Shown: one piece after another, positions 36,249 to 51,977 of the stretch
How positions within the stretch are numbered: the first letter of the stretch is position 1
Layout of the letters: every line of letters starts with the position of its first letter
DNA from: Gimibacter soli
GTDB taxonomy: Bacteria; Pseudomonadota; Alphaproteobacteria; Sphingomonadales; Kordiimonadaceae
Length of the DNA: 64,000 nucleotides
Assembly: GCF_028463845.1 (NCBI RefSeq)
Contig: NZ_CP116805.1
Span: 930,001 to 994,000 of the forward strand
Direction of reading: 5' to 3'
Position numbers and translations under genes: made by a program
Notes under the pieces: model-generated
The model's database searches: none
What the model saw: the letters and a program-made list of their open reading frames with translations, nothing else
Told to the model about the DNA's origin: nothing

Positions 36249-36446
36249 TTACGGCGTCGGAGCTGCGGCTTCTTCGGTAGCGCCTTCGATCTTGGTGCCA
36301 ACGTCGCCAAAGAGGTCGTCGAGGGCGGTGCCAAGAGCGGTGAGGGTGCCGACGAGTACTACTGCGATCAGGGCGGCGATAAGGCCGTATTCGATTGCGG
36401 TGGCGCCTTCTTCGTTCTTGCGAAGCTTGCGGATAAGTTTGGTCAT
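36249..36446 (-). CDS. Flp type IVb major pilin
   Basis: A 65-residue pilin precursor. The leader KLIRKLRKNEEG is followed by ATAIEYGLIAALIAVVL, which carries the Glu5-Tyr6 pair expected after CpaA cleavage. A short acidic tail (GTKIEGATEEAAAPTP) completes the mature pilin. Start is ATG at 36446; a longer in-frame extension to 36,482 has no support. It is the first gene of the cpaA-tadC block and has its own 380-bp upstream region with CtrA-like and GANTC elements. Confidence 0.92.
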   Translation of the reverse strand: MTKLIRKLRKNEEGATAIEYGLIAALIAVVLVGTLTALGTALDDLFGDVGTKIEGATEEAAAPTP

Positions 36447-36826
36447 GTTTGGTCTCCAGCTGCCAAGTTTGGATAGCCCCACTATGCGAGGGAGAGTTAA
36501 ACAAAAGGTTAATGCGTTTAAAAACCCCCCTTCGATATCAAATAGTTAGCCAGCATTTAGTGTAAATAACAAGGAAAATTTTAGACAAGTTGGTTAACCA
36601 TTACGAACTAAGGAGAATTGAGGGTGGGTGCAGGACCGGCTTGTCAAATCAAGGCCTGTGGCAACCTGCGGCCGGAGCCTGGCGAAAATGCTGCGGCAGG
36701 GGGCAGGGAGCCCGCCAGTGCGCGACTCGGTATCTGAAAGCGACTATCTGATGGATAAATAGGGAGAATCGCCTGACGTTGCAGGCAGCGATTCGCGCAG
36801 AAACAACGATAGATTCAGGGATGGAA
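36447..36826. promoter_or_regulatory. Upstream region of flp with CtrA-like and clustered GANTC sites
   Basis: No gene is seen in these 380 bp. The part nearest flp is rich in A+T. It contains TTAACCAT (36,594-36,601, plus strand), a half-site of the CtrA consensus, and TTAA-N8-TTAA near 36,497-36,512, one base longer than the CtrA spacing. Five GANTC sites, the target of the CcrM methylase, fall within 36,724-36,828, the last overlapping the stop region of the TadE-like gene. In Caulobacter the pilin gene is CtrA-controlled, so similar cell-cycle control is plausible here. Confidence 0.4.
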
Positions 36827-50875: not shown

Positions 50876-51060
50876 TCCCCTTTATGCTTTGCGGCGCCTT
50901 ATACGCGCCTTGGCCCCATCCGGCAAGCCCTGATGGCCTCGTGGCCGATTCGCACGGTGCAGCGCAGCAGAGATACACGCTTTAGGGGAGCGTTTCATAT
51001 TGAAACAGGGCGGATTTCCGCCATTTGATCGGCATAAATAGCTAAAATTAAAGCAAAATA

Positions 51061-51089: not shown

Positions 51090-51149
51090 TCGCGCCAACC
51101 TGAACGGCGGGTGATGACCCGGCGATTTGACAGAGGCGATCAGTTGACG

Positions 51150-51165
51150 TTAACAAGAAGTTAAC
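51150..51165 (+). promoter_or_regulatory. CtrA-type binding box
   Basis: TTAACAAGAAGTTAAC equals TTAA-N7-TTAAC, the full consensus for the cell-cycle regulator CtrA. It lies within a longer perfect 7-5-7 inverted repeat (51,148-51,166), about 155 bp before the PEP-CTERM gene. Confidence 0.6.
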
Positions 51166-51320
51166 GAACAAGCCCGCTGAAGCGGCGCTCCCAAGAACAG
51201 GCATGTGAGATCAGGCTCTGCGATGTGCGATGGCACGGCGCAAGAGACGAGAAGTGTGTGCCGGATCGGCGTGAGCCCCGGATGTGTTGTAACCCCCGCG
51301 TAAGCGGAAAGGATACCGAG

Positions 51321-51977
51321 ATGAACAAGATTGCGACCTTCGGCCTTGCAGCAGCCCTCCTGATCGGTCAGGCAGCGCATGCAGCCACCAATTTTGTGAC
51401 GAATGGCAGCTTCGAGGCCGGCCACACCGTTGTGGGCGCCAACTGGCATGTGTTCAACACGGTCGGTGCGTGGGAAACCATTGATGGCGCCGGGATCGAG
51501 ATCCAGGGCAGCGGCGTCGTGACGACGGCGCAAGACGGCAATTTCTATGTCGAGCTGGATAGCGACACCACGAACGGTGGCCTGCCGGGCGAATCCACCA
51601 ACACGACGATGGGCCAGTGGCTGACGCTCGGCCAGGGTTCGTACCAGCTTTCTTTCTGGTATCGGCCGCGCACGTCGGTGCTGGGCGACAATGGCATCCT
51701 CGCCTCGATCAACGGTTTTGACGTCAGCGCCAACACGGCGGCTTCCAAGGGCACGGCGTGGGAACAGTATCTTCTGGATTTCACTATCGGCACCGGTGGT
51801 GACTATCTCCTCAGCTTCGAAGCCCTTGGCAATGCCAACGAATATGGCGGGTTCATCGATAACGTGATTGTTTCGGCGATCCCGGAGCCGGAAACCTGGC
51901 TGCTCGTGATGCTCGGCTTCGGCCTTGCCGGCACCACGTTCCGCCGCCGCAACCGGATGGCTGTGAAGCTCGCCTGA
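51321..51977 (+). CDS. PEP-CTERM sorting-domain surface protein
   Basis: A 218-residue exported protein. A signal peptide (ending AAHA) is followed by a beta-sandwich region (NFVTNGSFEAGHTVVGANWHVFN) like many lectin- or DUF642-type extracellular proteins. At the C-terminus comes VIVSAIPEPETWLLVMLGFGLAGTTFRRRNR: the PEPxxW signal, a hydrophobic helix and an arginine cluster. Such tails are cut by exosortase during export to the surface or matrix. No exosortase gene is in the window, so it must lie elsewhere. ATG at 51,321 follows GGAAAGGATACCGAG. Confidence 0.88.
   Translation: MNKIATFGLAAALLIGQAAHAATNFVTNGSFEAGHTVVGANWHVFNTVGAWETIDGAGIEIQGSGVVTTAQDGNFYVELDSDTTNGGLPGESTNTTMGQWLTLGQGSYQLSFWYRPRTSVLGDNGILASINGFDVSANTAASKGTAWEQYLLDFTIGTGGDYLLSFEALGNANEYGGFIDNVIVSAIPEPETWLLVMLGFGLAGTTFRRRNRMAVKLA

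Follow-up and report, generated by a model that had tools for sequence, protein, structure and literature searches.

PEP-CTERM proteins are secreted to the bacterial surface and form a large class that is still poorly understood, and Haft et al. (2006; PMC1569441) stated that more regulatory proteins and DNA motifs were still to be found for those PEP-CTERM genes that do not belong to the PrsR class. The window analyzed here, a stretch of 64,000 nt from the single-contig genome of Gimibacter soli (3,591,784 bases, 3.59 Mb), contains upstream of such a gene a palindromic box that resembles a binding site of the response regulator CtrA. This locus raises the question of which genes are marked by the box, and which protein reads it. 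The features of the window to which the text first refers are the following:

51149–51165, no strand assigned: 17-bp box, core of a 7-5-7 inverted repeat, defined by sequence, conservation and enrichment before PEP-CTERM genes
51127–51132, plus strand: −35-like TTGACA of a putative sigma70-like promoter, 17 bp before TTAACA, kept at the loci L031 and L236
51150–51155, plus strand: inferred −10-like TTAACA, which overlaps the first half-site of the box
51321–51977, plus strand: gene of a PEP-CTERM surface protein (PF07589) of 218 aa, with an N-terminal signal-like segment recognized by eye
51876–51950 (genome 981876–981950), plus strand: PEP-CTERM sorting domain, defined by the domain match and starting with AIPEPETW

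The box, GTTAACAAGAAGTTAAC, has the form GTTAAC-N5-GTTAAC, and it reads as TTAA-N7-TTAAC on both strands. The perfect inverted repeat around it (51148–51166) consists of CGTTAAC (51148–51154), the spacer AAGAA (51155–51159) and GTTAACG (51160–51166). When both strands were searched, this was the single place in the window that matched TTAA-N7-TTAAC, and in 100 dinucleotide shuffles of the window the mean number of matches was 0.03, with a maximum of 1. The preliminary description of an exact CtrA-type box within a perfect repeat, located about 155 bp before a PEP-CTERM gene, was borne out in each of these points, as the distance from the repeat to the ATG at 51321 is 155 bp, and the encoded protein matches PF07589 at its end with 28.8 bits (cut-off 20.7). 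The same description placed the box downstream of a sigma70-like promoter. The −35-like element indeed exists, but its distance to TTAACA is exactly 17 bp, so that the putative −10 element is overlapped by the box, which hence is not wholly downstream of the promoter. This overlapping arrangement is also kept in Pseudokordiimonas caeni.

The genome encodes 29 proteins with the PEP-CTERM domain and one exosortase (197.9 bits). A genome scan for such boxes and their genes, as had been proposed from the window alone, found exact GTTAAC-N5-GTTAAC sequences at five sites, all five of which are located upstream of PEP-CTERM start codons, at distances of 64–271 bp. When up to two mismatches were allowed within 350 bp, the box was found before 13 of the 29 PEP-CTERM genes, as compared to seven of 273 other genes (Fisher p = 1.7e-10), which are a non-random sample taken from 451,128 bases around PEP-CTERM genes and motif sites. 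Because at least two of the seven control matches belong to genes that either have their box in common with a divergent PEP-CTERM gene or run antisense to one, this contrast is, if anything, understated. The reversed pattern, used as a control at the same stringency, was found before one of the 29 PEP-CTERM genes, and 16 of these genes have no box at two or fewer mismatches. The PEP-CTERM start codons were picked by a script that looked for signal-peptide-like starts, and at least one of them, at G024:C3:471039 in a related genome (box at −404), has probably been placed too far downstream. With the box present at about half of the PEP-CTERM genes, the idea first raised for a single gene extends to a regulon. 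The sequence GANTC occurs upstream of the G. soli PEP-CTERM genes at 3.4 per kb, as compared to 1.4 per kb in pooled sequence that mixes intergenic and coding DNA.

The box is also present in related bacteria. The P. caeni orthologue of the window PEP-CTERM protein is 91% identical, and upstream of its gene the two half-sites are retained at the same distance from each other, with different letters in the spacer, in agreement with the expectation that the box would be conserved at the orthologous gene. In three genomes from two other genera of the same family (G011, G024 and G058) all eight exact palindromes precede PEP-CTERM genes. Among the PEP-CTERM genes examined there, which were eight of eight domain matches in G011, 18 of 20 in G024 and 24 of 25 in G058 (50 in total), the box with up to two mismatches was found at seven, ten and ten genes, respectively. 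The cleanest single result was obtained by varying the distance between the half-sites, because each other spacing acts as its own control: in 79 PEP-CTERM upstream regions TTAA-Nk-TTAA occurred 45 times with k = 7, and one to eight times with each other k between 0 and 20. That the box marks a PEP-CTERM regulon is thus a well supported prediction. In G058 the same GTTAACACTTTATTAAT was also seen before two neighboring large repeat-rich genes of surface-protein type (G058:C1:1052233 and 1055132; L227 2235 and 5134), hinting that the box may also serve non-PEP surface proteins in that genome.

Two further words were enriched before PEP-CTERM genes, and both occur upstream of the window gene:

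50992–51006, no strand assigned: inverted repeat GTTTCATATTGAAAC holding TTGAAACA, the second PEP-CTERM-enriched word; present in P. caeni as GTTTCATAATGAAAC
51211–51216, plus strand: TCAGGC, the third word enriched before PEP-CTERM genes, detected by word enrichment

The word TGAAACA was found upstream of 18 of 79 PEP-CTERM genes, as compared to 2.35 expected, and in the window it lies within GTTTCA-TAT-TGAAAC, which is conserved in P. caeni. The word at 51211–51216 is possibly a second regulatory element.

The distribution of the exact palindrome across the order provided information about genes other than those of PEP-CTERM proteins. In 60 genomes of the order 39 exact palindromes were found, of which 13 were the family PEP-CTERM sites already described (five in G. 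soli and eight in its relatives). The neighbors of the 26 others were assigned by scanning 20 genes with Pfam, with the rest judged by eye or unclear. Eight of these palindromes precede signaling genes, which were four PAS histidine kinases, one PAS_5 gene, two PilZ genes and one chemotaxis receptor. In six cases the gene that follows is of GidA/TrmFO type, as supported by Pfam for three and judged by eye for the other three; one palindrome is located upstream of a PEP-CTERM gene in a different family (L244), and the remaining 11 have mixed or unclear neighbors. At the loci L095, L097, L098, L240, L245 and L246, which belong to another Kordiimonadales family, GTTAAC-N5-GTTAAC is located 152–184 bp before the GidA/TrmFO-type genes. 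In six PEP-CTERM-rich genomes from other families (G002, G007, G027, G030, G053 and G059) the exact palindrome was not found. Signaling and cyclic di-GMP genes belong to CtrA regulons in other bacteria. Because the signaling genes that follow the palindrome match this regulon content, CtrA is the probable reader of the palindrome in this order.

The G. soli genome contains a CtrA orthologue, as the CtrA-type reading of the box had presupposed. Its protein matches NCBIfam model NF045991 with 422 bits (cut-off 350), and it is 78% identical to a Caulobacter CtrA query sequence. A stretch of 20 residues, which we take to be the recognition helix, differs from the same Caulobacter sequence solely at its first residue. 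The motif TTAA-N7-TTAAC was published as that of CtrA from ChIP-seq in H. neptunium (PMC7200025), and a "full palindromic" TTAA-N7-TTAA has been described in Caulobacter (PMC4287350). The ctrA promoter of G. soli carries GTTAACCTTGATTAAC, a TTAA-N6-TTAAC sequence located 38 bp before the ctrA ATG, and within the 9 kb around this gene it is this N6 form, instead of TTAA-N7-TTAA, that was found. Atypical spacing has been reported for the ctrA promoters of Caulobacter, and a 6-bp spacing for two other genera (PMC6180460). At the loci L085 and L158 ctrA is divergent from a gene recognized by eye as a FliI-type flagellar ATPase, with a TTAA-N6-TTAAC box between them.

For typical CtrA targets the picture in this clade is mixed. 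Of 41 mucR-family matches 30 loci were processed, with eight set aside by a reading-frame rule and two of these recovered. Among nine mucR-type loci compared, five, all in family members, have TTAA-N7-TTAA at −112 to −116; the copies of G. soli and P. caeni have a half-site only, and two other loci have none. TTAA-N7-TTAA was also found near a GGDEF gene. Directly before a PAS_5 gene of G. soli three TTAA-N7-TTAA sites are located within 56 bp (G000:C1:2412685-2412741; L233 3686–3741), two of which have counterparts in P. caeni; a PAS_5 gene of another family has the palindrome as well.

The proposal that the surface protein is controlled together with Flp pili was considered using the Flp pilin gene of the window:

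36249–36446, minus strand: Flp pilin gene (PF04964), with Tad and CpaB-type genes nearby
36497–36512, minus strand: pair of TTAACC-type half-sites with the form TTAA-N8-TTAA, located some 50 bp upstream of the pilin gene, conserved in P. caeni
36594–36601, plus strand: half-site TTAACCAT, farther upstream of the Flp pilin gene, defined by sequence

The pilA gene of Caulobacter is a CtrA target (PMC11264516). The upstream stretch that holds the TTAACC-type pair with the spacing of 8 is nearly unchanged in P. caeni, but TTAA-N7-TTAA was not found upstream of the Flp pilin gene of the window. It is plausible that the Flp pilin gene would share CtrA control with the PEP-CTERM gene.

Overall, these data suggest that the box is probably the operator of a family PEP-CTERM regulon, with CtrA as the likeliest binding protein. 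The initial reading of a CtrA-type box is in this way supported in part: the ctrA orthologue and the conservation of the box speak for it, while the binding of CtrA to the box is what we infer from the sequences.

The most serious alternative, which we consider unlikely, is that the box is the binding site of a regulator other than CtrA that is dedicated to PEP-CTERM genes. This could be another OmpR-type protein, or a dimeric repressor or activator that is unrelated and recognizes GTTAAC half-sites, and the likeness to the CtrA motif would then be due to convergence. The box is in one respect stricter than the published CtrA consensus, as G before the first TTAA is kept in 39 of 46 PEP-CTERM boxes, while C after the second is kept in 25 of 46, an asymmetry that is an orientation bias relative to the gene (p = 0.003). 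Moreover, TTAA-N7-TTAA occurs at 33 sites in the G. soli genome, as compared to 23 for the reversed control, and because 12 of the 33 sites precede PEP-CTERM genes, there is no visible surplus outside these genes. When TTAA-N7-TTAAC and the reversed pattern were counted over 29 genomes of the family and 96 of the class, the motif was above the control in just four of the 29 family genomes, although such a count has limited value, as the reversed pattern carries other biases. Among 41 box sites, the distance between the box and a TATAAT-like −10 element showed no constant value. It is the lack of a motif surplus, the four of 29 genomes, the bias for G and the lack of a fixed −10 distance that keep this explanation as a rival, and candidates for such a protein exist in the genome, where at least six further OmpR-type matches extend over the entire CtrA query or the greater part of it. 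On the other hand, the same palindrome occurs at the PAS kinase, PAS_5, PilZ and chemotaxis genes of other families, which fits a general regulator, and no regulator gene was recognized among the listed open reading frames around the exosortase gene.

It is much less probable that the box is an enhancer site of PrsR, in the form of the published PrsK-PrsR/sigma-54 control of PEP-CTERM genes, which pairs a 17-nt motif ending in TTTACA with a sigma-54 promoter about 63 nt downstream of it (Haft et al. 2006; PMC1569441). The class of target genes and the length of 17 nt are the same, and TGGCAC is located 64 nt downstream of the box, in accord with the published mean spacing, but the ending of published motif 1 is unlike that of the box. 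In addition, the window sequence TGGCACGGCGCAAGA lacks GC at −12, and P. caeni has not kept its GG at −24. For two boxes the distance to the ATG is 26 bp, too little to accommodate both an enhancer and a promoter. The cut-off of the PrsR model (TIGR02915) was exceeded in one of 29 family genomes, G038, and not in G. soli, G060, G058, G024 or G011; the best match in G. soli was 376.9 bits, below the cut-off of 502.6. Hence, the differing motif, the missing −24/−12 element at the window gene and the lack of a PrsR match above the cut-off largely refute this explanation. The G038 gene above the cut-off is located at G038:C42:68012-69337, and that genome contains a single PEP-CTERM gene and lacks the exact palindrome. 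It is hardly credible that the box is a chance AT-rich intergenic palindrome without function, even though intergenic DNA is rich in TTAA words and the plain motif is near the control level outside the G. soli PEP-CTERM genes, because the contrast of 13/29 versus 7/273 genes and the spacing peak at k = 7 refute chance as a general account, and the half-sites have been conserved while the spacer changed.

If CtrA is indeed the protein that reads the box, phosphorylated CtrA, an OmpR-type response regulator, would occupy the palindrome as a dimer and contact two TTAA half-sites that are one helical turn (11 bp) apart. It would in this way switch dispersed genes of exosortase-processed surface proteins together with signaling genes, and probably the Flp pilin gene, and the bound protein would help or block RNA polymerase depending on the promoter. 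CtrA sites at the −35 position are associated with activation and those near the −10 position with repression; the overlap of the window box with the −10-like element would be compatible with repression or with a dual role. Judging from the protein families, export of the target proteins would be followed by processing by the single exosortase and display at the cell surface. The link to the cell cycle that was suggested at first for the release of the surface protein would be one possible consequence of CtrA control.

These observations suggest that in this family a set of surface proteins is under CtrA instead of the regulator known from other bacteria. We lean toward a scenario in which control of PEP-CTERM genes in this Kordiimonadales family passed from PrsK-PrsR/sigma-54 to CtrA, with the dispersed genes each gaining a strong palindromic CtrA box, so that the composition of the surface joined the CtrA program along with Flp pili and signaling genes. 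If this is true, a conserved master regulator of Alphaproteobacteria would have taken over the cargo set of a sorting system, as a case of regulon rewiring. The box would then be one of the motifs for PEP-CTERM genes that were still to be found, and it comes with a named candidate regulator. In the literature search, which was short of the whole literature, no link of CtrA to PEP-CTERM proteins, exosortase or Kordiimonadales was found.

The box can be compared with three known systems. PmrA-type and other OmpR-family boxes also have two TTAA-containing half-sites 11 bp apart, while the flanking letters of the present box differ from those of PmrA-type boxes, and among three regulators scanned none exceeded the cut-off of the PmrA equivalog model. 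The PrsR/sigma-54 system is similar in having a 17-nt upstream element that is common to many dispersed PEP-CTERM genes; in contrast, the element described here has another sequence, lacks a −24/−12 promoter at the window gene and a PrsR protein above the cut-off, and lies at a variable and often very short distance from the gene. The CckA-ChpT-CtrA regulon of Alphaproteobacteria differs in that here PEP-CTERM genes are the main carriers, the G in front of the first half-site is retained, the full motif shows no enrichment in the rest of the genome, and the CtrA site is predicted from sequence. It is alike in the TTAA-N7-TTAAC motif, the CtrA orthologue with a matching recognition region, the ctrA box of autoregulatory type, and the kinase, PilZ, PAS and mucR-type genes as carriers.
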